From Pseudomonas synxantha (lineage in GTDB: Bacteria > Pseudomonadota > Gammaproteobacteria > Pseudomonadales > Pseudomonadaceae), in NCBI RefSeq assembly GCF_900105675.1, contig NZ_LT629786.1:930001-994000 (forward strand): a stretch of DNA of 64,000 nucleotides, written 5' to 3'. Made by a program: the position numbers and the translations under genes. The notes below the pieces were generated by a model, which was given only the letters and a program-made list of their open reading frames with translations, did no database searches and was not told the origin of the DNA. Below, one piece after another: positions 8,606 through 61,247 of the stretch. Positions within the stretch are counted from its first letter, which is position 1. Each line of letters starts with the position of its first letter.

Positions 8606-8646
8606 TCTTCTTGTCTGCCTTAGATAGAGTGGCTGGGGATGGTCGT

Positions 8647-10085: not shown

Positions 10086-10125
10086 TGCAGTCTTCCTTCT
10101 TGTTCGTCGAGGTGGCGATGAGTGA

Positions 10126-10135: not shown

Positions 10136-10267
10136 CTTATTCGCCACTTTGTAAGTGTGCATTTCTGCATTTTTTCTGAACGGTCGGTTTACAAGGGTTG
10201 CAAGAAACCTGCCTGACTGGTCAATTTAAACAAAATAACTCCGCTGTCTGCGTAGGTGCATAGAACT

Positions 10268-10365
10268 GTAGGAGCGAGCTTGCTTGGGAAAAGCTTTAAG
10301 TCACCGCGTTTCTCCTGAAGACCCGCGGTATCGTTGGCGTTTTTCGCTAGCAAGCTCGCTCCTAC
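10268..10365. repeat. REP-like inverted repeat between puuE and uraH
   Basis: The arms GTAGGAGCGAGCTTGCT (10268-10284) and its exact complement (10349-10365) flank 64 bp. The sequence belongs to the GGAGCGAGCTTGCT class of Pseudomonas REPs, also seen at 28197. Apart from this repeat and the two palindromic operator-like sites, the 430-bp gap between puuE and uraH holds no gene I can support. Confidence 0.75.
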
Positions 10366-10405
10366 TGGGAGCAGGTCAAGAGACGCGATGAGTAGGTTGA
10401 ATTTA

Positions 10406-10415
10406 TTGTGTACAA
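10406..10415. promoter_or_regulatory. Near-palindromic site TTGTGTACAA before uraH
   Basis: One base differs from the palindrome at 10126 and 18413, and the flanking A and T extend the symmetry to 12 bp. It lies about 100 bp upstream of the uraH start, in an AT-rich stretch suited to a promoter. Interpreted as an operator for the same regulator. Confidence 0.45.
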
Positions 10416-10515
10416 TTTTAGTGGAAAGTGTCTTAATCGCTCATCGCCGACTTTTTCACTGCCCTGAAAAAGTGCGGGTTTCTCTTCTACTGACTTCAGG
10501 AGGCGCGTAAACGCC

Positions 10516-10869
10516 ATGGGACGTTTGACCACACACGTTTTGGACGCTGCGCACGGCTGCCCCGGCAGCGCGATCAAGGTCGAGCTGTACCGCGTCGAAG
10601 GCGCGCAGCTGGAACTGGTTGCCAGCGCCCTGACCAACAGCGACGGCCGTTGCGACGCGCCGCTGCTGCAAGGTGACGACTACCGCAGCGGTGTCTACCA
10701 GTTGCAATTCAGTGCCGGCGACTATTACCGCGCCCGTGGTGTGCAATTGCCCCAGCCCGCGTTTCTCGATGTGGTGGTGCTGCGCTTCGGCATCAGCGCC
10801 GAACAGGATCATTACCATGTGCCCCTGCTGATTTCGCCTTACAGCTACTCCACCTACCGCGGTAGCTAA
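10516..10869 (+). CDS. uraH: 5-Hydroxyisourate hydrolase (transthyretin-like)
   Basis: Hydrolyses 5-hydroxyisourate, the PuuD product, to OHCU, the UraD substrate. The 117-residue product has the N-terminal LTTHVLDAAHGCPG motif with the catalytic His, the middle block SDGRCDAPLL, and the C-terminal signature YRGS that distinguishes HIU hydrolases from transthyretin. There is no signal peptide, so it acts in the cytoplasm. An AGGAGGCG ribosome site lies about 10 bp before the ATG. It is divergent from the rest of the pathway and ends in a hairpin terminator at 10911. Confidence 0.95.
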   Translation: MGRLTTHVLDAAHGCPGSAIKVELYRVEGAQLELVASALTNSDGRCDAPLLQGDDYRSGVYQLQFSAGDYYRARGVQLPQPAFLDVVVLRFGISAEQDHYHVPLLISPYSYSTYRGS

Positions 10870-10910
10870 GTCGTCGCCGCGCTTGCCCCCAAATGCTCTT
10901 CGTTGGTTTC

Positions 10911-10937
10911 GCCCGCGCACACTGCGGGCTTTTTTTT
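10911..10937 (+). terminator. Rho-independent terminator after uraH
   Basis: GC-rich hairpin GCCCGC-GCACACT-GCGGGC followed by eight T residues, about 40 bp after the uraH stop codon. Confidence 0.75.
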
Positions 10938-11031
10938 GCCCGCGGCTTGTGCGCCGCACGCCCAACTATGTAACGCACCCTGGGGGGGCGGGGTGCCTAG
11001 GCTCGGCTTTTTCTGTACGGGATAGCCCACC

Positions 11032-39539: not shown

Positions 39540-39615
39540 AGCCGCCGTAGAGGCGGTGCAGCGCGGCTGGGTCTACGGTGCGTCTGATGCACCGCAGGCG
39601 CAGCCGCGTAGCTGG

Positions 39616-40761
39616 TCACGCTGCCTGTGACAATCGAGCCAGCGCTCTGCGGAAGCCATCCACCTTGTTCGCATCCCCGCGGGTCCTGTGGGTAATAACG
39701 CCATAGGCGTAAGGAAGCAGCCCCTCCAGCCAGTCTCGAGGGCGTGCCTCGACGCTATCGTCCAGGGTCGCGACGACCCAGTCCGGCAACCATGACATAT
39801 CGCGATCAGAGAAGTTGACCTCACCTGCGATCAGCAATGCCAGAGTGGTGCGCAGCGATGATGGGTCTTTCAGCAGGCGCTCCTGCAGTGCCAGGCAAGC
39901 TTGCGGGTGATCCAGCAGCTCAAGCAGATCGCCGGGTTTGTCCAGCACCAACGGCGGCACAAGCAGTGCGGACAAGGCCGGTAACGCACCCACCCAACGT
40001 TTATGCACCTCCCGATCAATCCCTGCGAAGTCCAGTGCTGGCGGTACATTCGGCGTGTCTTGGATAACCGTTGGCGTCAGGTAGCGCAGGCGAAGGCCCA
40101 TGAGGTCCATGAACAGCCGGTCACTGACACACAACGACCCCACGGCTGCAGTGGTGGAGGGCGGTGGGCCGATGATGAACGTCGCATTGCGTCGGTGGGG
40201 CAGGTGGTGAATGTCGCCCCAGCTGTCATTCAGGCGCTTGGCCAGCCAGGCCTGCGGCGTAGAACCTATGAACGGCTCAAGGTTCATGGGCACGCCAAAA
40301 CCGTTGAATACCACATGACCGCGAGGGTTCAGGCGGCTTTTGAGCCGTTGGTGAAAACCCTGATCAAACACGATCGGGGCGTAACCCTCCTCGGTGTAGA
40401 GATCGACGATGATCACATCGAACCGCTCGGAGGTCGCGCCCAGGAAGTGCGCGGCATCGTCGACCACACTGTCAAAGCGCAGATGCGCTGCCAGTCGGTT
40501 GCGGTTTTCCAGGCTTCGCACGGCGGCGGTCTCGTCCAGGTCGACGGCCAACAGGCGGGTCACCCGGGTACTGGCTGCGATGGGCGCCAGCGCCACGCCA
40601 TCCGAAAGCCCCAGCATCAACACCGAGATGCCCGCCTTCGATGGGTCGCCCAGGAAGCCGATGCAACCCATGTCGTCATAATATTGGCCGCAGAAGATCT
40701 GTTCATGGCGAGCGGGTTCAAGCCGGTCCTTGAGGTCTGGCGTGGTCAAAGGCAACTCCAT
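39616..40761 (-). CDS. Spermidine-synthase-like (SAM-binding) protein in the YcaO operon
   Basis: A 381-residue protein; the last gene of the operon. The N-terminal half looks like a class I methyltransferase or aminopropyltransferase: the nucleotide loop VLMLGLSDGVALAP near residue 46, acidic end of strand 2 in LLAVDLDETAAV near 68 and a motif IIVDLYTEEGY near 113, as in SpeE-type enzymes. The C-terminal 180 residues are helical and unfamiliar. The frame is open to 41277 but would run far into the MFS gene, so the start at 40761 was used. In context it may methylate the peptide product or act on a small molecule. The substrate is unknown. Confidence 0.65.
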   Translation of the reverse strand: MELPLTTPDLKDRLEPARHEQIFCGQYYDDMGCIGFLGDPSKAGISVLMLGLSDGVALAPIAASTRVTRLLAVDLDETAAVRSLENRNRLAAHLRFDSVVDDAAHFLGATSERFDVIIVDLYTEEGYAPIVFDQGFHQRLKSRLNPRGHVVFNGFGVPMNLEPFIGSTPQAWLAKRLNDSWGDIHHLPHRRNATFIIGPPPSTTAAVGSLCVSDRLFMDLMGLRLRYLTPTVIQDTPNVPPALDFAGIDREVHKRWVGALPALSALLVPPLVLDKPGDLLELLDHPQACLALQERLLKDPSSLRTTLALLIAGEVNFSDRDMSWLPDWVVATLDDSVEARPRDWLEGLLPYAYGVITHRTRGDANKVDGFRRALARLSQAA

Positions 40762-40790
40762 TTGCAAGTGGTGGGTGATGACGAGACGCG

Positions 40791-42095
40791 TCAGCGCGCG
40801 AACGCTGCCGGGTATTTTTCCAGGTAGGCATCGCTCAGTTGCGTGTCCTGGGTGCGCATGAACGTTTTGAAGTCGGGTACCAGAAACACCAGCAACGACA
40901 ACAGCAGCACCATGACGCCCAGCAGGGTGATGGTCAGCGCGACGCCCAGATGTGCGATCAGGCCGGTCATCGCGAAACTGCCCAAGGGGCTGGCTGCGGC
41001 AGAGAGAAACGCCACCGTGGCAAAGATCCGGTTGCGATGGAGTTTGGGGGTTGCCAGTAACCTCACGGCCGAGGTGGGGATGTTGATCAGCATCAGGCCG
41101 ACGCCCCCGCAGAAAAAGGCCGCCGGCACCAGCAACGACGAAGACACGGTGCCGACCACCACCAGGTTTAACCCCAGTAACGCAAAGCCTGCGGATACAC
41201 ACAGGTCGCGGGGGAGGCGATCGGATAACCAGCCGATGATTTTGTAGCTGCCTGCCAGAATCCCCAGCCCGAAACATGAGTCCAGAAGACCGATGTAAGT
41301 GACCGGGTAATGGATGACGTCTTTTACGTAAAGTGGCAGCAGGATGGTGAAAAAGGGAAACAAGGCAAAGTTGATCAGCATCGCGACAATGGCCAGGTAA
41401 AACTCGACCTTCACGCCATACACCACCTTGAAGCCGGAGTAGATCATGCGCCAGCCGCTGGTGGAGGGGGCATTGTCGCTGTGGCTGGTGGCACCGACGG
41501 AGTTAGGTATGGTCGCTATCAGCGCCCCGGCGAAGAGAATCGCAACGAAATCGGCGGCAAACGCAAATGTGATCCCGAACCCATAGATCAACCCACTGGC
41601 CATGACGGGCCCCAGCAGGATCGAAAAGGACGACATCACACTTTTGGTGCGAAAGGCCAGGGAGACTTTATCGTCGTGCGCAAATAAAGGAATGATCGAG
41701 GCCTGGAGCGGATCACGTACGCCGACAATCGCGCTGCTGACCATCATCAGCGCGCCCACCGTCCAGGGGTTGAAAGACCCCGTGGCAGACAGTATCACCA
41801 TCAACAAGGCGGTCAGCAAACTGAGCCAGGAAGCCAGCTTGATGATCAGGATCTTGTTGTACTTGTCCCCCAGCCACCCCAGCAGGGGTTTGGCTAATAC
41901 CTCGGCTGCGATGGAGCAGGCAATCATATTGGCAAAATAAAGTGCAGACCCGGTTTCCTGCAACGCCCACCAGGCCACCGCCAGTTGATTGCAGCGGCCC
42001 CCCAGCACCATCAACAAAAAGCTGAATTGCACTTTCAGCAGACGTCGGTCGATGCCGGGAAAACCCCAGGTGATGCCTGAAGAATTTGCACTCAT
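40791..42095 (-). CDS. MFS exporter in the YcaO operon
   Basis: A 434-residue transporter with about 12 helices, beginning MSANSSGITWGFPGID. It has a drug-exporter-like layout with PLLGWLGDKYNKILIIKLASW near residue 70, the loop 2-3 motif. The start at 42095 is preceded by AAGGTCCCTC at good spacing. It lies between the E1-rhodanese gene (46 bp) and the SAM-protein gene (29 bp). Export of the finished product or self-protection is the likely role. Confidence 0.78.
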   Translation of the reverse strand: MSANSSGITWGFPGIDRRLLKVQFSFLLMVLGGRCNQLAVAWWALQETGSALYFANMIACSIAAEVLAKPLLGWLGDKYNKILIIKLASWLSLLTALLMVILSATGSFNPWTVGALMMVSSAIVGVRDPLQASIIPLFAHDDKVSLAFRTKSVMSSFSILLGPVMASGLIYGFGITFAFAADFVAILFAGALIATIPNSVGATSHSDNAPSTSGWRMIYSGFKVVYGVKVEFYLAIVAMLINFALFPFFTILLPLYVKDVIHYPVTYIGLLDSCFGLGILAGSYKIIGWLSDRLPRDLCVSAGFALLGLNLVVVGTVSSSLLVPAAFFCGGVGLMLINIPTSAVRLLATPKLHRNRIFATVAFLSAAASPLGSFAMTGLIAHLGVALTITLLGVMVLLLSLLVFLVPDFKTFMRTQDTQLSDAYLEKYPAAFAR

Positions 42096-42141
42096 TGAGG
42101 GACCTTTGATCCGGAGGGGATAACTGCGCAATCAGCGGCGT

Positions 42142-43266
42142 TCACGGCGCGACCAGCGTGGCGTTGTCAGGAAAAGTCGTCAGGTAGCGCTCGATGCCGC
42201 CCTCAAGGCTGAAGAGCTCCGCGTGTGGGTGGATGCTGCGAACCGCCAGCAGGGCGGCCTTGCTCCTGACCCCGGATTTGCAATAGAAGACGATACGGCG
42301 GGTGGTATCCAGTTCTTGCCGGCGATCGAGTATGTCTTTGAGCGGAATCAAGCGGCCGCCCAGCGAAGCGTGCAGGTGTTCATGGCTGTCGCGTACGTCG
42401 ACCAGTTGAAAGGGCGCTTGTGACTCGAGCCAATCATGCAATTTGTCGGGCGACAGCCAATCGCTGTCACGCCATGCAGGCGTGGTGGAAGCCCCCAGGG
42501 CGGGTGCGGGAAGGCGGTTCCGGTTTTTATGGACGCTCAACAGGTGGAAGGTGTTGTCCAGGCAGTCGATGGACAACAATTTGCCGCTCAATGGCTCCCC
42601 GGCCTGGAGGATGAGTTTGAGCACTTCGTTGGCTTGAAAGCAGCCGAGCAGGCCAGGTATGACGCCCAGCACGCCGGCTTGCGCACAGTTTTGCGTCAAG
42701 TGTGGAGGCGGTGGGGTTTCGAACAGATCGCGAAAGCACGGCCCCCGCTCCTGGGTGGCTTGGTGGTAGTGATTAAATACCGACACCTGGCCTTCGAACT
42801 GACTGATCGAGGCATAGACCATCGGTTTCTCACCGGCGACACAGGCATCGCTGATGAGGTATTTGGTGTCGAAGTTATCCGTGGCGTCGACGATGATGTC
42901 GTAGCTCGCCAGCAGCGACAGCACATTGTCCGGGTTCAGCGTGGTGGCAAAGGTATCGACGACGATGTCCGGGTTCAACTGGTTGACGCGCCGCTTGGCG
43001 GCCGACACTTTCAGTTCGCCCACATCGGCCACCCCATAGAGAATCTGTCGATGCAGGTTGCTCAGGTCGACGATGTCGTTATCAACGATGCCGAGCGTGC
43101 CGACCCCGGCGCCTGCCAGGTACAAGAGCACCGGGCAGCCCAGCCCTCCGGCGCCGACCACCAGCACCTTGCTTTCTTTGAGGCGTTGCTGGCCCTGGGC
43201 ACCGACTTCACTGAGGATTATCTGGCGGGCATAACGGGAGGTGTCCGTCTTCAGGTCGCACTGCAT
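42142..43266 (-). CDS. E1-like ThiF/MoeB adenylyltransferase with C-terminal rhodanese domain
   Basis: A 374-residue fusion like eukaryotic MOCS3/Uba4. The E1 domain (about 1-245) has the ATP loop VLVVGAGGLGCP near residue 34, DLSNLHRQ near 69, and the catalytic-Cys block NCAQAGVLGVIPG near 182. MoeB relatives have PCYRCLF with two zinc Cys; here it reads PCFRDLF, so one expected Cys is Asp. The rhodanese domain (about 265-374) keeps the active loop CKSGVRS (Cys329). It would adenylate the Gly-Gly end of the adjacent carrier and load sulfur on it. ATG two bases after the carrier stop implies coupling; a GTG at 43275 is the alternative. Confidence 0.88.
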   Translation of the reverse strand: MQCDLKTDTSRYARQIILSEVGAQGQQRLKESKVLVVGAGGLGCPVLLYLAGAGVGTLGIVDNDIVDLSNLHRQILYGVADVGELKVSAAKRRVNQLNPDIVVDTFATTLNPDNVLSLLASYDIIVDATDNFDTKYLISDACVAGEKPMVYASISQFEGQVSVFNHYHQATQERGPCFRDLFETPPPPHLTQNCAQAGVLGVIPGLLGCFQANEVLKLILQAGEPLSGKLLSIDCLDNTFHLLSVHKNRNRLPAPALGASTTPAWRDSDWLSPDKLHDWLESQAPFQLVDVRDSHEHLHASLGGRLIPLKDILDRRQELDTTRRIVFYCKSGVRSKAALLAVRSIHPHAELFSLEGGIERYLTTFPDNATLVAP

Positions 43267-43267
43267 G

Positions 43268-43540
43268 TCAGCCACCTGCCACGGCGTTGATCAGAATCAA
43301 CTGCGCATTACTGTCCAGGACGCGGCCGCGGTCTTGCGCACTCATTACCGGAACCCCGTTGACGAACAAGCCCACGAACGGCAGTGGGTGAAGGTCCTCG
43401 GAGAACACCGGGCCAATCAACGCGGGAAACCGCGCGGTCAGGTTGCCCAGTACATCATTGACACACAAACCCTCGGCCTCGTGGGTTTTATGTTGGTCGG
43501 TGTAAGGCATGAACTGCCGGGGAAAGTGTACGACTGCCAT
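43268..43540 (-). CDS. ThiS/MoaD-like sulfur-carrier protein ending in Gly-Gly
   Basis: A 90-residue ubiquitin-like protein. Its last residues are VAGG, and the stop follows the second Gly, so no processing by a JAMM protease is needed. This is the tail used by ThiS and MoaD to carry a thiocarboxylate. The middle (LPFVGLFVNGVPV) fits the beta-grasp fold. The gene sits between the HExxH protein (3 bp) and the E1-rhodanese fusion, its obvious partner. Its neighbours suggest sulfur for the peptide pathway, not for thiamine or molybdopterin. The similarity to ThiS/MoaD is by layout and tail and is weak along the chain. Confidence 0.78.
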   Translation of the reverse strand: MAVVHFPRQFMPYTDQHKTHEAEGLCVNDVLGNLTARFPALIGPVFSEDLHPLPFVGLFVNGVPVMSAQDRGRVLDSNAQLILINAVAGG

Positions 43541-43543
43541 GGG

Positions 43544-44314
43544 TCATCCTTGAGCGTTGTCAGTGGTCAGTTCACTGGAGAACGTATCCAGCCTGGAGGT
43601 GATCAGCTTGCCGATTTCAGACAATTCGGCGGATGCCTGGAGCGTGGCCAGGCTCTGCAGGAAATACTGGTGCAGAAAATCCAGCCGTTCGGGGCGCGCC
43701 CGCCCGGAGCCGCTCGCCACCAGGCGCTGGTGATAGTTCACGGCGCTGACCGCGAACAGGCAAGCCAGCAGGACACCTCGAGGGTTCTTGCCGCCGGTGC
43801 CCGATGGCAGCACGTAGTCGTTCGCGCTGTCCTTGAGCTGGAAGTCGTAAATCTCGGCGATCATGCTGCACCAGATATGCGACAGCTCATGCACGAGCAG
43901 TTCCTCAAGATCGGTGATGCTGGTGAACGCGTCTTCACCCAGGAACATCTGTTGCGGCAGCACCGGATTGGTCAGGCTGACCTGGTGCGTCAGCAACTTA
44001 TAGATATTCACTGGCAGATCGAACAGTTTGCTCCAGTGCGGCAGCAAGGCTTTAAGGTTGCTCCTGGCTTCGGCCAGCATGAACTGCTCGGCGTTACCCA
44101 GCGCTTGATGGGGTGGAAACTCAGGCGCGCCTTCGACGTGCTGGTGATACAGGTCGGTGGCAAAATCAGGTTGCAGATAAGTGGCTAACGGTAACTCGCT
44201 GCCCGCAATATTCCTGCGTACAACGGCGACGAGGGTTAGAAGTTTGGTGCTGTTGAAGTGTGGATTTACAAACGGCAAGCCGTTTATTTCACACAGTATC
44301 TCTGATGGCGACAT
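43544..44314 (-). CDS. HExxH-motif protein of RiPP-type gene clusters
   Basis: A 256-residue protein with the metal-binding motif His142-Glu-Leu-Ser-His146 in LVHELSHIW. No signal peptide, so it is not a typical secreted protease. Proteins with this motif near peptide-modifying enzymes are annotated as HExxH putative peptide modification proteins; some members of that group are iron/2-oxoglutarate peptide beta-hydroxylases, from memory. Which applies here is unknown: it may process the leader peptide or oxidise a side chain. It overlaps TfuA by 26 bp and precedes the carrier by 3 bp. Confidence 0.72.
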   Translation of the reverse strand: MSPSEILCEINGLPFVNPHFNSTKLLTLVAVVRRNIAGSELPLATYLQPDFATDLYHQHVEGAPEFPPHQALGNAEQFMLAEARSNLKALLPHWSKLFDLPVNIYKLLTHQVSLTNPVLPQQMFLGEDAFTSITDLEELLVHELSHIWCSMIAEIYDFQLKDSANDYVLPSGTGGKNPRGVLLACLFAVSAVNYHQRLVASGSGRARPERLDFLHQYFLQSLATLQASAELSEIGKLITSRLDTFSSELTTDNAQG

Positions 44315-44990
44315 TCTGTTTTACCGTCTTCGTCCATGGTTTTAGTTTGAGAAAATCGATCAAGTCCAGACTTTTTATTCTGTAGGCCGAAAAGTTGGCC
44401 AGGGCACTGTCTATGGTGGGTTCCGCGACAGGCAGTGCCATCAAGGCGTCTTTCAGACAACTGAGCGTGCGATGTCCGTACCACATGTTTTTCAGGTAGT
44501 GCAGGGTTTGCTGTGCGTGGGCTGGCGTGATGATTTGCTCCGCCGTCCAGTGCTTCAAAAACTGCCGGATATGGATAAGCGGCTCGCTGAGCGAAAGGTA
44601 AGGTGCTTGTGCCTGGTGCACCAATGTCACTTCGTCGTCGGACATGTCCGGGTCGCTGGCGAATTGCCGATAGACTTCGCCAAAGCCGGTCATTCCCAAC
44701 CTGTCCATTTCACAGGCGCGAATGGCCCCCATGGAAGACAGGCCCCAAATGCGCCAACCGGCGTTCAGGGCCGTCAGGATCTCGGCATGCCCGACAGCAG
44801 GGTGTGCATGGAAAACGCCATCGACAATCGCAAGATCCGAAGGCGGCGATTGCGCAACCAGGCGTTCTATGTCGCCGCGTTTGACGGGAGGGCATACCAC
44901 CAGGTCGTCGCTGCACAGCAGTCGGCTGTCGATGCCTTGCAGGGAAGGGCCCGCAAATAGCATGCAGGTTTCAAGCGCTTTGTTTGACAT
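44289..44990 (-). CDS. tfuA: TfuA-like protein
   Basis: A 233-residue protein of the TfuA family. The core signature is present: LAIVDGVFHAHPAVGHAEILTAL near residue 55, followed by WGLSSMGAIRACEM near 85 and GMTGFGEVYRQF near 100. TfuA is the partner of YcaO enzymes in peptide backbone thioamidation (methanogen McrA glycine, thioviridamide-type peptides). From memory, it releases sulfide from a thiocarboxylated carrier. Overlap with YcaO (20 bp) and with the HExxH gene (26 bp) shows strong coupling. The frame is intact. Confidence 0.9.
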   Translation of the reverse strand: MSNKALETCMLFAGPSLQGIDSRLLCSDDLVVCPPVKRGDIERLVAQSPPSDLAIVDGVFHAHPAVGHAEILTALNAGWRIWGLSSMGAIRACEMDRLGMTGFGEVYRQFASDPDMSDDEVTLVHQAQAPYLSLSEPLIHIRQFLKHWTAEQIITPAHAQQTLHYLKNMWYGHRTLSCLKDALMALPVAEPTIDSALANFSAYRIKSLDLIDFLKLKPWTKTVKQNVAIRDTV

Positions 44991-46188
44991 ACGTAAGTAA
45001 CCTCGGACCGACCCTTTTCAACCCGGGTTCAAAGGCTTCAAGTCCCGGAATCATGATTCTGACCACCGTGATGTCGTCCGTGGCCTTGCTAAGCACAACC
45101 CTCAGCACGCTACTCAGGCCGATGGCCTGCAACCGCTCGATAAGCAACGTCCAGGCCGATTCGATGGTGGGGATCGCGGCTTCCTGGCAGTTGATGGCGG
45201 AGTAATCGATCATCTGTTCACGGGAGGTCGCCACGTTACGCAAGCGTGAGATCGCTTCAAGCTCCACGGAGCGGCCTTTCTTCTCGAAGTATTTGACCCG
45301 CTCAATGATGTCGTCCCGGCCTCCGTGGATGTGACTCAGACGGCTTTGGGCCGCTTCGCAGATTGCCCGGATCAAGGCGATTTCCTTGATCGGATGCAGC
45401 CCTGAGCCAGTCGCCACAGAGATAGGGGCCTGGGGGGACTCTTCCATGATGAACGCCTGGAAGTAGGCCAGTCCAAAGCAGTTCTCGGTGTAACGGACCG
45501 ACAGGCTCAGGCCCGCGTCATTGACCTTGCTGATCAGGGCAGCGATCTCTGCGCTGTATTGGTCCAGATGGACGAGGCAGGAACGGTCACGCAGGTGATT
45601 AAAGGCCTGGACATCGCGCTCCATCAGCTCGCACACCGCATGCACCGAGGCTTCCACCAAGTCATTGCCGGAGGCCAGGCCACTGGAGCTTTCCCCAAAG
45701 AGTTGTTGCCCTGGGTTCTCGGGGTAGGGAATGAACACTAGTTCGGCGGGTGCAAGAACCTTTTTCTCGCGCAATACGTCTTCGACTTCGACGGCCATGA
45801 TGAGCGCGTCGGCATTGGCAGAGAAGCCATACAGCATGCAGAACTGATTGAACGCTATGCGGCCCTCATGGCTGTCGATGAGTTGCCGGGGAGTGGTCTG
45901 CACCAGTGTCAGTTGGGCTGTATTGTATTGCGCAAGGCTGAATTCGATAGCCTCCATGTACGCGCCTATCTTGGCTTCGGCTGGCCTGAGGCCTTTGCCT
46001 GCATTGACGCACAGCGAGCCCTTGAGGGCATCGGGTCGGATACTGGCAAACACTGGGATACCGATACGGTCCAGCCAGGTTGTGTCGGTTACACGAGTAA
46101 TGCCCAGGCGTGGGGCAAGGTCGTTGGTGATGATGGTTAATGTTTCTTCGGCACTGCGACGACGAAGGCTCGAACTAAGCCTTTGCAT
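44971..46188 (-). CDS. YcaO-domain protein
   Basis: A 405-residue ATP-dependent YcaO enzyme that activates a peptide amide by phosphorylation. Diagnostic blocks are GKGLRPAEAKIGAYMEAIEF near residue 64, GLASGNDLVEASVHAVCELMERD near 172 and CEAAQSRLSHIHGGRDD (Cys277-Arg283 region). The C-terminus lacks the PxPxP tail of azoline-forming cyclodehydratases. With TfuA next door this points to thioamide rather than thiazoline/oxazoline formation. AAGG lies 9 bp before the ATG. It follows the candidate precursor by 77 bp, with a hairpin between them. Confidence 0.92.
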   Translation of the reverse strand: MQRLSSSLRRRSAEETLTIITNDLAPRLGITRVTDTTWLDRIGIPVFASIRPDALKGSLCVNAGKGLRPAEAKIGAYMEAIEFSLAQYNTAQLTLVQTTPRQLIDSHEGRIAFNQFCMLYGFSANADALIMAVEVEDVLREKKVLAPAELVFIPYPENPGQQLFGESSSGLASGNDLVEASVHAVCELMERDVQAFNHLRDRSCLVHLDQYSAEIAALISKVNDAGLSLSVRYTENCFGLAYFQAFIMEESPQAPISVATGSGLHPIKEIALIRAICEAAQSRLSHIHGGRDDIIERVKYFEKKGRSVELEAISRLRNVATSREQMIDYSAINCQEAAIPTIESAWTLLIERLQAIGLSSVLRVVLSKATDDITVVRIMIPGLEAFEPGLKRVGPRLLTYVKQSA

Positions 46189-46233
46189 AAGTTGTTACCT
46201 TGGCGTGATGAAAGTTAAACAAGCACACACTGG

Positions 46234-46263
46234 AAACGGGAGGGAATGACTTCCCTCCCGTTT
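46234..46263 (-). terminator. Hairpin between precursor and YcaO (likely attenuator)
   Basis: A perfect 13-bp stem (46234-46246 and 46251-46263, stem AACGGGAGGGAA) with a 4-nt loop lies directly after the candidate precursor stop. On the coding strand it is followed by only three T residues, so termination would be partial. Such a hairpin would keep peptide mRNA high and enzyme mRNA lower, as in many RiPP operons. Confidence 0.65.
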
Positions 46264-46265
46264 TT

Positions 46266-46442
46266 TCAGGCTGCGATTTTCACTTCTTCAGCCAGGGCCA
46301 GCGTCAACACGTTGTTGTTCGACTGGTGTGCAACAAAGCCAGCATGCATCAGGCTTTCATCGTTCAGAATGACGGAAAACTTCTCCGCTGTTTCCGAATC
46401 CAGTTCCAGTTCAAAGGTTGCATTGTTAACGAGAGCGTCCAT
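46266..46442 (-). CDS. Candidate RiPP precursor peptide
   Basis: A 58-residue peptide beginning MDALVNNATFELELDSETAEK and ending LALAEEVKIAA. It is the first gene of the operon and lies 77 bp upstream of ycaO on the same strand. AGGAA in a GGATAGGAAAAAC context precedes the start at 46442; an earlier ATG at 46460 has no ribosome site. The acidic N-terminal half looks like a leader, and the C-terminal half (from HAGFVAHQSNNNV) is a possible core. There is no Cys and little Ser or Thr, which fits thioamidation better than azole formation. Assignment as a precursor comes from position and size, not homology. Confidence 0.68.
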   Translation of the reverse strand: MDALVNNATFELELDSETAEKFSVILNDESLMHAGFVAHQSNNNVLTLALAEEVKIAA

Positions 46443-47162
46443 TTTGTTTTTCCTATCCATAGCATTGCGTTTAAGGATGTGTGTTGCGCAACGGCTATGA
46501 AACTTGCAGGCGGGGGAGCGGGTGTCAAGACAATACAATTATTTTCAATTCTGCCTTTTTGCGATGAAAGGACTGAATGGTTAATTGAAAATATAGGCTG
46601 ATAGGCGCGTCTGCATTTCATGCAAAAGGAGCCGAAGTCTAATGCAGCAGCAGGTTTGCGCCGTCGCGCGCAACAGCGATGCATAGCTTGGTGTATGACT
46701 TTGGCTTCGGTGATTGGGCGCATGTTCAGTCGGTTTCATGACCCCCATAATGGGGACGACTGCCTTCGGCAAATTACCGGTGCGATTGGCGGATACACCG
46801 CGCAAAAGTGATGGCGTAAGAATGGCATCTGCGATGCGTCACCCGTACCGATCATTTTTTTTCAGCTGCGTGGACTAAGAATGACCGGGCAATTCGTATT
46901 TTGTGTATCGAGATATTCGCTGCACAGAATTTTCACATTCCATCCAAGACAATTCGCCGGCTTTAATCGCCTGGCAAGGCTCTATTCCTGGGATTTCTAA
47001 AGACCCTGCCACGTTGCACGTTCAGTAATTAATAGCCTTGCCGGCCTTGATCGGGCACCATTTGTGCCGCCGCGTTAACCGCCTACCCCAGCCAGCCTGG
47101 GCGAGGGACGGACGCCACTGCCTTATTTCGCAACTTAAACTTCCAATGGGTCCTAAAACGAC
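46443..47162. other. AT-rich 700-bp gap upstream of the precursor
   Basis: No gene supported here on either strand; short open frames show no family features. Part of it (46530-46600) is more AT-rich than its surroundings and must hold the promoter of the precursor operon on the minus strand. A TTGACA (minus strand, 46523-46528) is a possible -35 element, but no good -10 is spaced from it. The right part (46980-47160) is the upstream region of the LtaS-like gene. Confidence 0.5.
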
Positions 47163-49250
47163 ATGGCAAACCCGGACGCCCTGAATCAGCAGCGAGCTGC
47201 AAATCGCCTGCTGCAACCGACCGTCAAATCCCATCTGGCTTACACGCTGCTGTGCGCACTGGTCATGATGGTGATGTTCTCCCTGCTGCGCCTGGCGTTG
47301 CTGGTCTACAACCGCGAGATGATCCTGGATACGCCGGCCTCGACGTTCCTGGAAGCGTTCGCCAACGGCCTGCGCCTGGACATCCGCCTGGTCATGTACC
47401 TGCTGATTCCGCTGTTGTTGGCGCTGTTCAGTGTGCGGGCCATGGCGGCGCGCGGGTTCTTCCGCTTGTGGCTGACCGTTGCGTCGAGCATCGCCTTGTT
47501 CCTGGGCCTGATGGAGATGGACTTCTACCGCGAATTCCACCAGCGCCTCAACGGTCTGGTCTTCCAGTATGTGAAGGAAGACCCGAAAACCGTGATGAGC
47601 ATGCTCTGGTACGGGTTCCCGGTGGTGCGTTACCTGCTGGCCTGGGCTGTGGGCACGCTGATCCTGAGCATGGCCTTCAAGGGCGCCGACCGCGCAACGC
47701 GCCCGCGTGGACCCTTCAGTGGCGGCACCATCAGCACGCGCCAGGTGGCACCGTGGTACAGCCGCATCGCGGTGTTCGTGGTCTGCCTGCTGGTCGCCGT
47801 GGTCGCCATCCGGGGCACCCTGCGTCAGGGCCCGCCGTTGCGCTGGGGTGACGTCTACACCACCGATTCCAACTTCGCCAACCAGCTGGGCCTCAATGGC
47901 ACCCTGTCGCTGATCGCTGCGGCGAAGTCGCGCTTCTCCGAAGATCGCACCAATATCTGGAAAGCCACCCTGGAACAGCCATTGGCCACCCAGACCGTGC
48001 GTGACATGCTGGTGTTACCGCAGGAAAAACTGGTGGATACCGACACCGCCGCCGTGCGCCGTGACTTCACGCCACCGGCCGAGAAGACCCTGCCGATCAA
48101 GAACGTCGTGGTGATCCTGATGGAAAGCTTCGCCGGTCACTCGGTGGGTGCATTGGGACGTCCGGGCAATATCACCCCGTACTTCGACAAGCTGACCAAG
48201 GAAGGCTTGTTGTTCGACCGCTTCTTCTCCAACGGTACCCACACCCACCAGGGTATGTTCGCCACCATGGCCTGCTTCCCGAACCTGCCGGGTTTCGAAT
48301 ACCTGATGCAGACCCCGGAAGGCAGCCACAAGCTGTCGGGCCTGCCGCAGTTACTCAGCGCCCGTGATTTCGACGATGTGTATGTCTACAACGGCGATTT
48401 CGCCTGGGACAACCAATCGGGCTTCTTCAGCAACCAGGGCATGACCAACTTCATTGGCAGAAATGACTTCGTGGACCCGGTGTTCTCCGACCCGACCTGG
48501 GGCGTGTCCGACCAGGACATGTTCAACCGTGGCCTGGAAGAATTGAAAGCCCGTGAAGGCGGCAAGCCGTTCTATGCTCTGCTGCAGACCTTGTCCAACC
48601 ACACACCGTACGCGTTGCCGACGCCATTGCCGGTTGAAAAAGTCACCGACCGTGGCAGCCTCAACGAGCACTTGACGGCCATGCGCTACTCCGACTGGGC
48701 CTTGGGCCAGTTCTTTGAAAAGGCCCGCAAGGAACCGTACTTCAAGGAGACCCTGTTTGTGATCGTGGGTGACCACGGCTTCGGCAACGAGCAGCAGATC
48801 ACCGAGATGGACCTGGGCCGCTTCAACGTACCGATGCTGATGATCGCGCCGGGCATGCAAGAGAAGTTCGGCGAGCGTGATCACACGGTGGGCACCCAGA
48901 TCGACATCGTGCCGACCATCATGGGTCGCCTGGGCGGCGACACACTGCACCAGTGCTGGGGTCGTGACCTGCTCAACCTGCCGGAAGGCGACAAGGGCTT
49001 CGGCGTGATCAAGCCGTCGGGCAGCGACCAGACCGTAGCCTTGCTCACCGGTGACCGTGTGCTGGTATTGCCCAAGGAAATGCCACCCAAGTTATGGGAA
49101 TACACACTGGGTGCCGAACCGACCGGCAAGGTGATCCCGGAGTCGCCGGACGAGGCTGCACTCAAGCAGAAACTTGAGTCGTTCCTGCAAACTGCAACCA
49201 AGAGCCTGCTGGATAACACCGCGGGTGTCGTGGATGGTAAGCCGGACTAA
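47163..49250 (+). CDS. LtaS/OpgB-like sulfatase-fold phosphoglycerol transferase
   Basis: A 695-residue inner-membrane protein. The N-terminal 200 residues hold about five membrane helices (for example LAYTLLCALVMMVMFSLLRLALL and LVMYLLIPLLLALFSV). The remainder is a periplasmic alkaline-phosphatase-fold domain: VVVILMESFAGHSVGALG near residue 318 (first metal Glu), FFSNGTHTHQGMFATM near 355 (nucleophile Thr region) and FVIVGDHGFGNEQ near 535 (metal Asp-His). Family members move phosphoglycerol to polymers or glucans. Here it probably modifies periplasmic glucans or an envelope polymer; the substrate is unknown. A strong terminator follows. Confidence 0.88.
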   Translation: MANPDALNQQRAANRLLQPTVKSHLAYTLLCALVMMVMFSLLRLALLVYNREMILDTPASTFLEAFANGLRLDIRLVMYLLIPLLLALFSVRAMAARGFFRLWLTVASSIALFLGLMEMDFYREFHQRLNGLVFQYVKEDPKTVMSMLWYGFPVVRYLLAWAVGTLILSMAFKGADRATRPRGPFSGGTISTRQVAPWYSRIAVFVVCLLVAVVAIRGTLRQGPPLRWGDVYTTDSNFANQLGLNGTLSLIAAAKSRFSEDRTNIWKATLEQPLATQTVRDMLVLPQEKLVDTDTAAVRRDFTPPAEKTLPIKNVVVILMESFAGHSVGALGRPGNITPYFDKLTKEGLLFDRFFSNGTHTHQGMFATMACFPNLPGFEYLMQTPEGSHKLSGLPQLLSARDFDDVYVYNGDFAWDNQSGFFSNQGMTNFIGRNDFVDPVFSDPTWGVSDQDMFNRGLEELKAREGGKPFYALLQTLSNHTPYALPTPLPVEKVTDRGSLNEHLTAMRYSDWALGQFFEKARKEPYFKETLFVIVGDHGFGNEQQITEMDLGRFNVPMLMIAPGMQEKFGERDHTVGTQIDIVPTIMGRLGGDTLHQCWGRDLLNLPEGDKGFGVIKPSGSDQTVALLTGDRVLVLPKEMPPKLWEYTLGAEPTGKVIPESPDEAALKQKLESFLQTATKSLLDNTAGVVDGKPD

Positions 49251-56122: not shown

Positions 56123-56432
56123 AAAGTCCTTACCGGTTTTTCCGTTGGGGAGAGGTCAACACATCGCGCGCTGAACGCGCAGGTACTCTGAAACTGACCC
56201 AGGCATACCCGTGGAGTTTTAGAACGATAAGTTATAAGCGATCAGGGCATGAGGCGCTGATCAGTGTTCGCGGCTTGGCGCAGGCTCTGGGGCCAGTGCG
56301 TTAGATAGGTCAAGGATGCACGCAAATTGTGGGCTGATGGACCGCGCAAACCAGCAGGTATTCAAACCCATTCCCGGAGGCGGCGGGCATATGGTGGAGC
56401 GTCATTATTCAAGGTTGTCATGGAGGTCATGG

Positions 56433-59400
56433 ATGTCACAGGTAAGTGAGGTGGTTACGCCAACGGTGTGGGCACAGTTGCCCGGCAAGCTGCTGGAGGC
56501 CACCCAGGATCTGGATATAACCCAAGTGCTGCTCGACCGGTTGCCCGGCTGGATGGTTCGTGCTGACGCTCGCAGCCTGGCGCATATCAAGCGCGAGCAC
56601 GTGGACAGTGAAGTACTGCGCGAGGCGCTCAATACGCTACTGAAGAACCTGGAACCGCTCGATGAGTTCTGCAGCGAGCGACTTGAAGCGTTGCTGGTTT
56701 CCAAGGGGCAGCATCTGGATGTGAAACACGATGTGCTGGAGTTGCCCCACCGCTCAATGACCAACGCCAACCCGGACCTGCTGGGCCCGCTGTTGATGAC
56801 GGTGACGGTCGAGAAGCGCACGCTGCTGCAGGCCGCCATGCAGAATTTCAGCGCTTCCCAGGCTGAGGACGGTGGCCTGGGGATCGGCGCACTGGTGCGT
56901 AACGTCGGCACGGGGCTTGAGGTCGAGTCAATGAGCGCTGTCGAGTTTGCCGGTTACTGTCGCGAGCTGGATCTGGGCGCGGCCTATCAGGAACATCTAC
57001 GGGAGGTCTTCGATTTGCCCGCCCCCGGTGAAGTGATGGCGGCGGATGCCTTTAACCCGGCGGCCAGGGACATTGGCCGGCTCAAGTTGAGCGACATGCG
57101 CCTGGACCTGCATATCGCCCTGGGCAAGGGGCACGTGCGCCAGGAGACCGGCACGCTGCTGTTCAAGGTGCTTTGGTCAGGCAGGGACACTTATCCAACC
57201 CGCGACCTGTTGCTGGAGGGCCGCGCGCTGGTCTGGCATGGGTTGAACATCGACCAGGCCTGCGCGTGGAGTGTGCTGGTGTTTTCCGGCAGTGCCGAGC
57301 AAGACCTGTCCTCGGGTCGCTGCGTGGTGTACATGCCCAACGATCCAGCCCGCCCATGGTTCGAGTACGACACCCTGGCGGCGTTCAAGGGCTATCTATC
57401 GTCCAAGCTGCAGGAGCCTGCCTATCGCGAGTTCTTCAAAGGCTATCTGGATGAATCCGAACGCGTGGACTTTTTCCAGCGCTTTGATACCCGCAAGGCC
57501 GTGGAAAGCCTGGAGGCGGTATCGGCCCCGGTCAGCGTGTCGCGGTTTTTTTTCGATGCCTACGTGGGCAAGGCGCAATTGGATGCCAGGGTGTTGGCGG
57601 TGCCGGTGGCAGAGGTCGACGAGGAGGCCCGCCGATCACTGATCGAGCGGTATGTGGAGCTGGGGCTGACATTGGCCAATATCGCCGGTTTTTTCGTGCC
57701 GGGCCTGGGCCAGTTGATGCTCGGGGTGGGTGTCGGCCAGCTGTTGGGCGAGGTCTATGAGGGCGTACAGGACTGGCAGCACGGGCACAAGACCGATGCG
57801 CTGGAGCACATGACCAATGTGGCTGAAGGCATTGCGTCAATGGCGCTGATGGCCGTCGGGGGCAAAGCCGTGGGGGCTCTGTTCAAGGACGCTTCGCGTA
57901 TGCCGGCGAGTTATTTCGAGCAGTTCGAGGCGGTCAAAGCCGCGCAGGGCGAGTCACGGTTATGGCGACGCGACCTGCGCCCTTACCAGCAGTCGGTGGC
58001 TGCCGAGGTGCTCGCCACGCCCAGTTACAAAGGCATCTACCAATATCAAGGGCGCTCTTATATCGCGATTGACGGCGCGATCTACCGGGTGTCTTTCGAT
58101 GCTGGCGTCGGTCGCTGGCGGGTACTGCATCCGGTGCGTCAAACGGCTTATCGCCCGCTCTTGGAACACAATGGTTTCGGCGGCTGGCGCCATCAGGCCG
58201 AGCAGGTCGAGCAGTGGAACAGCCCGGCTTATGTACTCGAACGCCTGTCTCCCGGACTCAGATCACTGCCCGACGGCCGCCTGGATGAAATCATCAGCAC
58301 CACCAACAGCCGGTTGCCCTGGTTACGCCAACTGGCCCAGTACAACCAGCCCTTGCCGCAGCGGCTGCGCGACTGTGTGATGCGTTGGCGCCAGGAGCAA
58401 TTGATTCGCGACCTGGCCTGGCAACTGGAATTCCAGAACCAGCCCGATGCCGGTACGGGGGTCGTGCAAATGCTGGCTTTGCCGATGCTGGAAGGGTGGC
58501 CCAAGGGGCGTTTTTTCGAGCTGCTGGACGCCGAGGGAAACTTGCTCAAGCGCTATCCCGATACCGCTCCATTCGATTACGAAGACATGAGCATCCACGT
58601 CAGTGAGCAGCAACTCAAGGACGGCCAGGTGATGCACACGCTGCTCGAGACCTTCAGCGCCAAGGAGCGCGACGTGCTGCTGGGTGAAAAAGCCGACATC
58701 CAGCAGGCCCATAAGCTACTGCGTGCGCGTTTGCTGGCGGGGGTAAAACGGCATTACCGCACGCTGTTCGACCAGCTCTGCGAACATGCTGATCCGCCCG
58801 CTTCGGGCATTGCCGACGTGCTCAAACACCGCTTCCCAGAATTGCCCACCGGGATGATCGAGGAGCTATTGTCCCAGGCGTCATCGCTTGAGCGTCTGTA
58901 TCTGCGTGAGACTGGCAGCGTGCCCTTGCGCCTTTTTCAGCGTGCCGGGCAGGCGTTGCGCGAACTGCAGGAAGACCGTGCGGTGGCCGGTTTCTACCTG
59001 CCACCGTTGGCCACCGAATCAACTGAGCGCCTCGCGGTCAGCCTACTGGGGCGGTTACCGGGATGGCCGGCGCAACTGCGCTTGCAAGTGTATGAACAGG
59101 CGCTGGACGGCGCCTTGCTCGGCAAGCTGGAAACTCCCACCGCGACGCGTTTGCGCAAGCTGGTCAAGTCCGCCCGGGGCTACCAGGCCTTCGACGAGCA
59201 GGGCCAGGCCCTGCATGAGCCGCTGCCGGGGCCGTTGGGCTTTTACCAGGCGCTGCTGAGCACGCTTTCGGCCACAGAACGCACCGGCCTGGGGATTTAC
59301 TCCACCGGCGAGCGGGGGGCCAGACAGCTGCAGTTGAAACTGCGCTGGCGGGTCGGGGATGAACGTGACCTGGTAGCCGGGCATCTGCGCCGCGCCTCTG

Positions 59401-61247
59401 CCGAACCCCTGCCGTTGTGGCGCGAGGGTTGCGTGCAGGCTTCACCGCCTGAGGTCACGCCACAGCCGGCGGCACTGATACGCAAGGTGAAAAAACTCTA
59501 TCCCTTGCTGAACGACGCCCAGGCCTCAAGCCTGATCGAAGAGCTGGGGGCTGACCACATGGCCCGTGCCCGCGCGGTCAAGGGCCTGCAGAACGACTAT
59601 GAAACCCTGCGCTCAGTGCTCAATACCTGGCGCCATGACCGGGCCGCGCTGGCGAAAATCCCCGGTACGCCTGCGGACGCCCGGTTTGGTCGCAAAATCA
59701 TCGCACGGCGGCTGAAAGCCTGCTGGCGGCGGATGACCACCTTGAATAAAGAGGCCGGCGTGTCCCTCGACGGGATGCTCGGCGGGCCGCTGCCGATATT
59801 GCCACCCGAGATCAAATTCACGCATGTACGCCAACTGTCGATGAAGAACATGGGCGTCGGCGATGAAGTGGCGTATTTCCTCAAACACTTCCCCGGGCTC
59901 AAGTCCCTGGAGCTGTCGGGCAACCGCTTGACCCGTCTGCCGGAGGTACTGTCGCACATGCCGCAGTTGCAAGCCTTGTACCTGGATGACAATCAACTGG
60001 TGCTGACCAACTACATGCGCACCAAGCTGGCAGACCTGCGCACCCTCAGGATCATGAACCTGGCGGGCAACCCGCTGGTTGATCCGCCTAAGGTCGATCA
60101 CCTGTTCGACTTGCACCAATTGATCCTGCATGACTGCCGGCTCAAGACCTTTCCCGAACACTTGTGGCGTTTGCCCTACCTGACCAGTGTGGACCTGCGC
60201 GAGAACGACATTACCGAGCTGCCGGCGTGGTTGTTCACGGCGCATCGGGATCGCACCCGGGGTATCAACTTGCGCCACAATCCATTGTCGGCATCCACAA
60301 GCCGGCAAGTGCTCGATTATCGTCGCCAGCGCGGCGTGGGCATGGGCTTTTACGAAGACGATGACGCACGCTTGAACGAGCAGGCCGCTCGCGAGTTGTG
60401 GATGCCCGATTCGCGGCAGACGGACTACGCGCAGAAAGACCTGATGTGGCAAATGTTGAAGGATGACAGGCACAGTGACGGCTTGTTCAAGTTGCTGGCC
60501 GAGCTGGGCGGAGCGGCCGACAGCGAGCATGTGCGTGAAGACATGACCCGGCGCGTGTGGCGGGTACTCGAGGCGAGCAGCCAGCGCGCCGACCTGGCCA
60601 CCGAAGTATTTGAACGTGCATTCACCCCGTATAACTGTGATGACGGCGCGGCGGTGAGCTTCAGCGCCCTGGAAATCCTGGTTGAAATCAGCGATGCGCG
60701 CATGCAGGTCGAGGGCGGCCAGCTGTCCGCCAAGCCCTTGTTGGCGCTGGGGCGCGGCCTGTATCGGCTCGATCGCCTGGAAAGCATTGCGCGCAACCAC
60801 AGCATCGCCAACCCCGGCGGCGATGCCTTGGAGGTCAGCCTGGCCTACCGTACCGGCCTGGCCAGCCGTTTCTATCTGCCAGGGCAGCCTAAGCACATGC
60901 GTTATGCCAGTTTGGGCGGTGTCACCCCGGCGGCGCTGAGTGATGCGGAACTGAAGATCAAGGCCGCGGAAATATCGCCTCTACTGTTGCGTTTCCTCAT
61001 TAATCTGCCGTTCTGGACGGACTACCTCAAGCGCGCCTATGCCGCCAGTTTCAGCACCCTTAACGAGCCGTTCGAGACGCGTATGCAGGCAGTGTTCGAA
61101 CAAGGCGCGGATCTTGATGACGAAACCTACCGATCACGCATGGATGGCATTCTGCGGGAGCAGGTCACCGCCGAAGAGGTCGCCTTCGAGCGCCTGACCC
61201 TGGCGGCCATGCGCGCTGATGAACTGGGGGTGTGCGAAATTCGCTAG
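56433..61247 (+). CDS. DUF6543 toxin with leucine-rich repeats and NEL-type E3 ligase-like domain
   Basis: A 1604-residue protein of the same large family as the one at 11032. The N-terminal DUF6543-type region is followed by a hydrophobic helical segment (about 406-450, LTLANIAGFFVPGLGQLMLGVG) and a second at about 460-480. Leucine-rich repeats span about 1130-1270 (LKSLELSGNRLTRLPEVL, LQALYLDDNQL, LRIMNLAGNPL, VDLRENDITELPAWL). The last 280 residues resemble the NEL E3 ubiquitin-ligase domain of Shigella IpaH and Salmonella SspH: the expected Cys-x-Asp motif is Cys1402-Asp-Asp. The start at 56433 has GGAGG 6 bp upstream; the frame is open from 56316, and an ATG at 56391 is also possible. 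No secretion signal seen. Confidence 0.8.
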   Translation: MSQVSEVVTPTVWAQLPGKLLEATQDLDITQVLLDRLPGWMVRADARSLAHIKREHVDSEVLREALNTLLKNLEPLDEFCSERLEALLVSKGQHLDVKHDVLELPHRSMTNANPDLLGPLLMTVTVEKRTLLQAAMQNFSASQAEDGGLGIGALVRNVGTGLEVESMSAVEFAGYCRELDLGAAYQEHLREVFDLPAPGEVMAADAFNPAARDIGRLKLSDMRLDLHIALGKGHVRQETGTLLFKVLWSGRDTYPTRDLLLEGRALVWHGLNIDQACAWSVLVFSGSAEQDLSSGRCVVYMPNDPARPWFEYDTLAAFKGYLSSKLQEPAYREFFKGYLDESERVDFFQRFDTRKAVESLEAVSAPVSVSRFFFDAYVGKAQLDARVLAVPVAEVDEEARRSLIERYVELGLTLANIAGFFVPGLGQLMLGVGVGQLLGEVYEGVQDWQHGHKTDALEHMTNVAEGIASMALMAVGGKAVGALFKDASRMPASYFEQFEAVKAAQGESRLWRRDLRPYQQSVAAEVLATPSYKGIYQYQGRSYIAIDGAIYRVSFDAGVGRWRVLHPVRQTAYRPLLEHNGFGGWRHQAEQVEQWNSPAYVLERLSPGLRSLPDGRLDEIISTTNSRLPWLRQLAQYNQPLPQRLRDCVMRWRQEQLIRDLAWQLEFQNQPDAGTGVVQMLALPMLEGWPKGRFFELLDAEGNLLKRYPDTAPFDYEDMSIHVSEQQLKDGQVMHTLLETFSAKERDVLLGEKADIQQAHKLLRARLLAGVKRHYRTLFDQLCEHADPPASGIADVLKHRFPELPTGMIEELLSQASSLERLYLRETGSVPLRLFQRAGQALRELQEDRAVAGFYLPPLATESTERLAVSLLGRLPGWPAQLRLQVYEQALDGALLGKLETPTATRLRKLVKSARGYQAFDEQGQALHEPLPGPLGFYQALLSTLSATERTGLGIYSTGERGARQLQLKLRWRVGDERDLVAGHLRRASAEPLPLWREGCVQASPPEVTPQPAALIRKVKKLYPLLNDAQASSLIEELGADHMARARAVKGLQNDYETLRSVLNTWRHDRAALAKIPGTPADARFGRKIIARRLKACWRRMTTLNKEAGVSLDGMLGGPLPILPPEIKFTHVRQLSMKNMGVGDEVAYFLKHFPGLKSLELSGNRLTRLPEVLSHMPQLQALYLDDNQLVLTNYMRTKLADLRTLRIMNLAGNPLVDPPKVDHLFDLHQLILHDCRLKTFPEHLWRLPYLTSVDLRENDITELPAWLFTAHRDRTRGINLRHNPLSASTSRQVLDYRRQRGVGMGFYEDDDARLNEQAARELWMPDSRQTDYAQKDLMWQMLKDDRHSDGLFKLLAELGGAADSEHVREDMTRRVWRVLEASSQRADLATEVFERAFTPYNCDDGAAVSFSALEILVEISDARMQVEGGQLSAKPLLALGRGLYRLDRLESIARNHSIANPGGDALEVSLAYRTGLASRFYLPGQPKHMRYASLGGVTPAALSDAELKIKAAEISPLLLRFLINLPFWTDYLKRAYAASFSTLNEPFETRMQAVFEQGADLDDETYRSRMDGILREQVTAEEVAFERLTLAAMRADELGVCEIR

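Follow-up and report, generated by a model that had tools for sequence, protein, structure and literature searches.

Does a single operon of Pseudomonas synxantha encode both a thioamide-bearing peptide and the proteins that bring sulfur to it? The question is raised by eight minus-strand genes, all located between positions 39616 and 46442 of the window, which is the whole 64,000-nucleotide stretch of contig NZ_LT629786.1 that was analysed. The host genome consists of one contig of 6.84 Mb, and its YcaO protein shares 98-99% identity with the YcaO proteins of Pseudomonas khavaziana and P. libanensis. We consider it likely that the operon makes a ribosomally synthesised and post-translationally modified peptide (RiPP) that bears a thioamide in its backbone and probably also a hydroxyl group on a side chain, using its own sulfur delivery chain. 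A sequence-only reading of the window had described a thioamide-type RiPP operon with its own sulfur-supply module, and gene content, synteny, the conserved peptide and predicted active-site residues support that description. The eight genes, many of them overlapping and headed by a 58-residue peptide, were recovered at the coordinates given there, and the listed motifs were present. The start of the gene for the S-adenosylmethionine (SAM)-fold protein was corrected; it is more likely at 40761, which yields 381 amino acids, as in two related loci (L037 and L038). The features are as follows, with the evidence for each in brackets; clades A and B are the two groups of Pseudomonas loci.

46266..46442, minus strand: precursor peptide, 58 amino acids (homologues 5' of YcaO in other genera; ratio of nonsynonymous to synonymous substitution rates, dN/dS)
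46311..46343, minus strand: most conserved part of the predicted core, residues 34-44, AGFVAHQSNNN (alignment and motif tally)
46234..46263, minus strand: hairpin with a 13-bp stem and a 4-nt loop, between the precursor stop codon and YcaO (folding)
44971..46188, minus strand: YcaO enzyme, 405 amino acids, predicted to activate the backbone with ATP for thioamidation (Pfam, NCBIfam)
44289..44990, minus strand: TfuA, 233 amino acids, proposed hydrolase of the carrier thiocarboxylate (PF07812, PDB 6xp8, conserved residues)
43544..44314, minus strand: HExxH protein, 256 amino acids, probable alpha-ketoglutarate/iron peptide beta-hydroxylase (TIGR04267 below cut-off, ChlH profile match, invariant residues)
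43268..43540, minus strand: ThiS/MoaD/SAMP-like sulfur carrier, 90 amino acids, C-terminus VAGG (ThiS profile, AGG end)
42142..43266, minus strand: E1 adenylyltransferase-rhodanese fusion, 374 amino acids (Pfam, PDB 6yub, cysteines)
40791..42095, minus strand: major facilitator superfamily (MFS) exporter, 434 amino acids (PF07690, TIGR00900 below cut-off)
39616..40761, minus strand: spermine-synthase-like SAM-fold protein, 381 amino acids, putative tailoring enzyme of Pseudomonas clade A (PF01564; start by comparison)
39546..47162, no strand: interval between the two flanking genes, holding the operon (271 and 290 bp in two relatives without the operon)

The precursor peptide and its operon

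The small peptide is a real gene under purifying selection. Its dN/dS was 0.011-0.135 in all six cross-species pairs (50-58 aligned codons); it was the most constrained gene in two of them (omega 0.011 and 0.036) and lay within the range of its neighbours in the others. A genome-collection scan with YcaO yielded 32 loci, and these were searched with a profile built from seven Pseudomonas peptides, which matched in 21 loci at E<=0.01 and in 26 at E<=1. Fourteen of the 21 stronger matches are from Pseudomonas, where a match is expected, and the other seven are from Glaciimonas, Roseateles, Vibrio and four actinobacteria; a lack of any conserved small peptide in homologous loci, which the sequence-only reading had named as counter-evidence, was thus not found. 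Related peptides were located 5' of YcaO in Glaciimonas, Vibrio, Roseateles, Streptomyces and others. The alignment gave the consensus F-x-LD...E-x-F...L-x-DE-x-x-M-x-AGFVAH-x-SNN, followed after the NN motif by a tail whose length differs between clades. The window peptide had no Pfam or NCBIfam match up to E 0.1, and no known leader family was above cut-off for it and ten relatives.

The YcaO and TfuA genes overlap by 20 bp, the TfuA and HExxH genes by 26 bp, and the carrier and E1 genes are 1 bp apart; the genes touch or overlap throughout except for the gap between precursor and YcaO and the short gaps on either side of the exporter gene. The 96-nt stretch between precursor and YcaO folds at -33.1 kcal/mol (z -3.8 against dinucleotide shuffles). 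Of 25 such regions collected, two were too short; of the 23 folded, 19 gave z<=-2.3 against mononucleotide shuffles, many of the 19 being close relatives, and four (L052, L055, L061, L068) did not. Stem sequences are unlike between clades. The hairpin is likely an attenuator or a 3'-end stabiliser, and as an attenuator it would let the precursor be made in excess. No Rfam element was found around the peptide at the gathering threshold (46100-47300), and a sigma-70 promoter scan was uninformative (one site vs 3.1 expected).

The order YcaO-TfuA-HExxH-carrier-E1-MFS recurs in Pseudomonas clades A and B, Glaciimonas and Vibrio; Roseateles and Herbaspirillum differ in having the MFS gene at the front. 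The cluster is not a chance arrangement, since different species conserve the peptide and other genera share the gene order. What follows the core varies: clade A adds the spermine-synthase-like gene, found in 11 of the 32 loci, all Pseudomonas; clade B (one locus tested, L048) and Vibrio have a JmjC/cupin protein; and Glaciimonas, Herbaspirillum and a cyanobacterial metagenome-assembled genome have a methyltransferase. In the window, the SAM-fold protein matched the spermine-synthase domain PF01564 at 2e-9 (scored on a 377-residue form), and the exporter matched PF07690 at 5e-24 and TIGR00900 at 5e-34, the latter under that model's cut-off.

A plasmid of Pantoea ananatis and another of Paraburkholderia megapolitana also carry the gene set, the Pantoea carrier being present though unannotated. 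The peptides beside the YcaO genes of these plasmids carry HNANN and HEANN. A plasmid search with the window peptide gave no match, and the operon DNA had no near match among plasmids. On the Paraburkholderia plasmid (L078), a second, divergent YcaO-TfuA cluster lies beside the first at 2186-13937, with a carrier ending in LAGG, an E1 with an N-terminal rhodanese-like part (by eye), three cupin genes, an O-methyltransferase and a candidate peptide without the HxxNN motif.

In two of 14 relative loci (L086 and L087, from genomes without this YcaO) the flanking genes are 271 and 290 bp apart, compared with 7.6 kb in the window; in the other 12 they were not seen side by side within the short stretch examined. 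The same flanking genes occur in four clade A loci (L037-L040). Seven other Pseudomonas loci, four of clade A and three of clade B, have none of the window's flanking genes nearby, so the operon is sited elsewhere in them. The YcaO tree joins clade A to Glaciimonas and clade B to actinobacteria (both groupings starred); in it, loci with carrier and E1 do not form one clade (three changes, AU test p 0.024). Five rows were left out of this tree: L001 and L003 (longest frames, probably wrong, branch length 10), L035 and L078 (long) and L046 (split frame). Split genes were observed in three Pseudomonas copies, affecting the peptide in L041, the HExxH gene in L043 and YcaO in L046, a sign of decay of the cluster in some strains, or else of assembly errors.

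YcaO, TfuA and the proposed sulfur supply

The YcaO (Pfam, 2e-52) and TfuA (PF07812, 1e-37) genes are adjacent in the window and in all 32 scanned loci. YcaO scored 204.8 bits against the McrA thioamidation model, 84.8 against the azoline-forming SagD model and 30 against the E. coli-type YcaO model; it is under the McrA equivalog cut-off of 365 bits and is therefore not that equivalog. These profile scores support assignment of the enzyme to the thioamide-forming rather than the azoline-forming type. The sequence-only reading had pointed to a YcaO grouping with RimO-type or azoline-forming members as the contrary outcome; the profile scores gave no such grouping, and the tree held TfuA-linked outgroups and no azoline-forming one. 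It is extremely improbable that the enzyme instead forms azolines or another heterocycle with TfuA as an accessory. Some members of the YcaO superfamily do form azolines, and the window peptide contains Ser and Thr, but it has no Cys, no dehydrogenase family is present among the eight genes, TfuA stands beside YcaO throughout, and an azoline-type YcaO was rejected on the SagD and McrA scores above.

Modification of a housekeeping protein by YcaO and TfuA, as for uL16 or McrA, with the small open reading frame (ORF) a mere neighbour, is scarcely credible and was rejected on distribution and context. Although the McrA-modifying family is the nearest to this YcaO, the distribution is patchy (at least 49% identity in eight of 398 Pseudomonas genomes, host included), two relatives have the empty site, and there are an exporter, tailoring genes that vary and a conserved peptide, all signs of a specialised product; the host also has a separate YcaO with a 754-residue frame that, judging by size, is perhaps the uL16 enzyme. 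A third YcaO gene of the host genome (L036; 1640955-1641923) matched PF02624 at E 1.4e-34, and the operon genes are absent around it. A different thioamide-type locus is L035, also from Pseudomonas, where the YcaO-TfuA pair is distantly related (26-31% identity) and an E1-like gene lies about 5.6 kb off.

TfuA matched the solved TfuA structure PDB 6xp8 at 2.5e-23, and its Ser aligns with that of 6xp8. The serine of an SMG motif and a downstream lysine, which may be the catalytic one, are conserved across 33 aligned rows. In published work, the catalytic residues of TfuA are a Ser-Lys pair (PMC13185837), thiocarboxylated ThiS is hydrolysed by TfuA to supply YcaO (PMC8153245, PMC13063428, PMC13185837), and YcaO-TfuA pairs sometimes operate with ThiF and ThiS homologues (PMC9576775). 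Because of these reports the logic of the sulfur relay is already known, and the operon plausibly holds the whole of it.

The carrier ends in AGG in all 21 sequences compared (window, 18 loci, Pantoea and Paraburkholderia). The E1-rhodanese matched ThiF at 3e-81 and rhodanese at 6e-9 (Pfam) and Uba4 (PDB 6yub) at 7e-56. All 20 E1 proteins compared retain the E1 cysteine and the cysteine in the C-x-[ST]-G loop of rhodanese. Active-site residues that appear intact in carrier, E1, rhodanese and TfuA are consistent with the sulfur supply proposed in the sequence-only reading. The co-occurrence of YcaO with carrier and E1-rhodanese, put forward there as a check, was partial: both are in the gene run with YcaO-TfuA in 18 of the 32 loci, and since the loci were fetched by YcaO, this count says nothing about how common the pair is where YcaO is absent.

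In the seven actinobacterial loci, neither carrier nor E1 lies near YcaO. Each of these genomes has an E1 relative at another place, with the match extending into the rhodanese part in four, which fits sulfur supply being needed but not necessarily dedicated. In three of four genomes of Pseudomonadota other than Pseudomonas, the additional E1 matches are short and without the rhodanese part; Vibrio has a second long one. The notion that a dedicated E1-rhodanese exists only where there is no other fits those three genomes and was rejected for Vibrio and for the host; with a second E1-rhodanese in the host genome, the dedicated copy is not accounted for by need alone. This second protein is a 629-residue chain of JAMM peptidase, carrier, E1 and rhodanese parts (L079, 6846-8735; host genome about 654.8-656.7 kb), with E1 and ThiS found by search and the other domains mostly by reading. 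Cysteine-synthase-like, serine-acetyltransferase-like and AlaX-like genes lie beside it, and by its look the locus may encode a fused carrier-based cysteine route.

Carrier and E1-rhodanese pairs serve the thioquinolobactin or pyridine-dithiocarboxylate pathways in other Pseudomonas, and the pair could in principle make a thiocarboxylate for a small-molecule product here, the peptide being incidental. This is very improbable, given that no small-molecule backbone genes are among the eight, that the peptide is the most constrained gene in two of six pairs and well constrained in the others, and that the pair shares the gene run with YcaO-TfuA in the 18 loci (fetched by YcaO) counted above.

The HExxH enzyme and the core motif

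Among Pfam and NCBIfam families, the only match of the HExxH protein was to TIGR04267, the model of the alpha-ketoglutarate HExxH peptide beta-hydroxylases; there was no Pfam match, and no peptidase family matched up to E 0.1. A profile of 18 HExxH sequences found ChlH (PDB 8s5f) at E 0.026, with a radical SAM protein as the next chain at 0.42, and residues H142, E143, H146 and R210 are invariant in the 18. HExxH enzymes hydroxylate RiPP residues, and one pair of them is from Pseudomonas (PMC12636437). By these comparisons the protein is most likely a hydroxylase, which the sequence-only reading had missed. It is unlikely, at roughly the level of one case in several, that it is instead a leader- or follower-trimming peptidase or an oxidative backbone cleaver, an assignment that would leave thioamidation unchanged. 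In favour of that alternative, the eight genes show no other protease family, clades differ in the length of the tail that follows the NN motif, and hydroxylation and cleavage are both carried out by PflC, a Pseudomonas enzyme of the alpha-ketoglutarate HEXXH kind (PMC12636437); the family match and the best PDB match are nevertheless to beta-hydroxylases and ChlH, and peptidase families were not matched.

A scan of ORFs of up to 260 amino acids near YcaO, with wider flanks, located H-x-[SA]-N-N in 21 of the 23 loci that carry the HExxH gene (including L041, where the peptide is split) vs none of 11 without it (among them L059, where just 624 bases after TfuA make absence of the enzyme less sure). 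Collapsed to architectures, this motif is present in nine of 11 with the enzyme vs none of 11 without (Fisher p 2e-4). One actinobacterial locus (L056) has enzyme and motif but neither carrier nor E1, a hint that motif and enzyme belong together. An HExxH profile scan of 369 class-level and 398 phylum-level genomes matched in one and three, respectively (the host in both sets, one clade B genome and one partial Pseudomonas match), too few for co-occurrence. A plasmid search with the HExxH protein returned two records only, those of Pantoea and Paraburkholderia.

As HxxNN occurs only in HExxH loci and an AGFV-like segment occurs also in some loci without the enzyme, our guess is that the hydroxyl would be placed on the His or an Asn of the HxxNN segment and the thioamide in or near AGFV. 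A thioamide on Asn, by analogy with StdA of the std cluster (below), is an open alternative. The pairing of an HExxH enzyme with YcaO-TfuA, together with a motif confined to HExxH loci, gives direct site predictions for the two modifications.

Proposed route and known systems

Every chemical step of the proposed route is predicted from sequence. The rhodanese domain would receive a persulfide, and the E1 domain would adenylate the C-terminal Gly of the carrier, with sulfur transfer giving a carrier thiocarboxylate. TfuA would hydrolyse the thiocarboxylate and hand sulfide to YcaO, which with ATP would activate an amide of the peptide backbone and exchange O for S. The HExxH enzyme would then hydroxylate a residue in the H-x-[SA]-N-N segment, and the SAM-fold protein may add further tailoring. 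A protease encoded elsewhere would trim the peptide, and the MFS protein would export it. With the whole proposed relay and its substrate in one operon, each step is open to deletion or reconstitution.

Several observations count against this route. Six of the 32 loci gave no match to the peptide profile (L058, L059, L062, L063, L064 and L066), although similar-looking small ORFs lie beside YcaO or TfuA, by eye, in all of these but L058. No protease family was seen among the eight genes in Pfam and NCBIfam scans. The TIGR04267 match (8e-9, 35.7 bits) is below the cut-off of 40, and the ChlH match is weak. Two HExxH loci (L052 and L060) lack the motif; moreover, the tree gives two well-supported independent contrasts only, so the link between motif and enzyme is not significant after ancestry and may stem from shared ancestry. 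The carrier passed the ThiS profile marginally (22.6 bits vs a cut-off of 22.5), and its best PDB match had E 0.09. The first of the CxxC pairs of MOCS3/Uba4/MoeZ-type E1s, which we take to be zinc ligands, is absent from all 20 operon E1s and present in Uba4 and in the fused E1 of the host genome, and the latter protein, fused to JAMM and carrier domains, might also supply sulfur. Finally, no paper characterising the product was found in the open-licence literature searched.

More tentatively, and with somewhat more doubt than confidence, the operon can be regarded as representing a separate RiPP class, spread horizontally in Pseudomonadota and Actinomycetota and having more distant relatives in further phyla. 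Its H-x-[SA]-N-N core would carry a backbone thioamide and a beta-hydroxyl from the HExxH enzyme, and in Pseudomonadota it would be fed by a zinc-less E1-rhodanese and a carrier devoted to peptide thioamidation. If this is true, the pair of thioamide and hydroxyl beside His could bind metal.

Elsewhere in the window, two very large ORFs are present at 56316-61247 (1643 amino acids, leucine-rich repeats by eye) and 11032-16254 (1740 amino acids).

The sequence-only reading knew of no characterised Pseudomonas pathway with this gene set. None was found in the open-licence literature searched, although the gene order had already been listed: a Pseudomonas pan-genome study of 2021 (PMC8719888) includes a putative 'YcaO cluster' among Pseudomonas strains with a putative precursor, YcaO, TfuA, unknown-domain protein, ubiquitin-like protein, E1/ThiF-like protein, MFS protein and methyltransferase in the same order. 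The likeness is by description and not by sequence; the position of the HExxH protein is given as 'unknown', and in the accessible text the cluster is listed without product, motif, relatives or mechanism. 'TfuA-related' clusters of P. palleroniana are mentioned in PMC11963402, in its accessible part without gene detail.

Of the other close systems, the std cluster of Streptomyces thermodiastaticus (PMC13174530, preprint 2026) is alike in its YcaO-TfuA pair, short precursor, S-N motif near the C-terminus, hydroxylating iron enzyme and MFS protein, and its thioamide sits on Asn. It differs in that the hydroxylase is a multinuclear non-haem iron-dependent oxidative enzyme (MNIO) rather than an HExxH protein, in its protease-carbamoyltransferase and its motif SNKEWQE, and in having no carrier or E1 in the genes listed in the accessible text. 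Thioviridamide-type thioamitides (PMC8153245) share YcaO-TfuA thioamidation and, in thiostreptamide S4, His beta-hydroxylation, but contain an aminovinyl-methylcysteine (AviMeCys) ring on Cys, made with a flavoprotein and other genes. No AviMeCys-forming family was found among the eight genes in Pfam and NCBIfam and the window peptide has no Cys, which sets the operon apart from the thioviridamide-like type. The archaeal McrA thioglycine system (PMC5589413) has the nearest YcaO and TfuA profile families, and its loci are sometimes near thiF, moaD and moeB; its target is a large enzyme subunit, not a small precursor. The alpha-ketoglutarate HExxH enzymes ChlBH, BpmH and PflC/PosC (PMC12636437) belong to the same family by the weak profile match (ChlH, E 0.026), and PflC and PosC are from Pseudomonas; ChlBH, however, is fused to a radical SAM part, and PflC stands beside an MNIO-nitroreductase, not YcaO-TfuA. 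The kind of system and the listing of the cluster were thus already known, and the present analysis adds a likely identity for the HExxH protein, a peptide family with H-x-[SA]-N-N that extends over several genera, a hairpin, an empty site and predicted active-site states for the sulfur chain.

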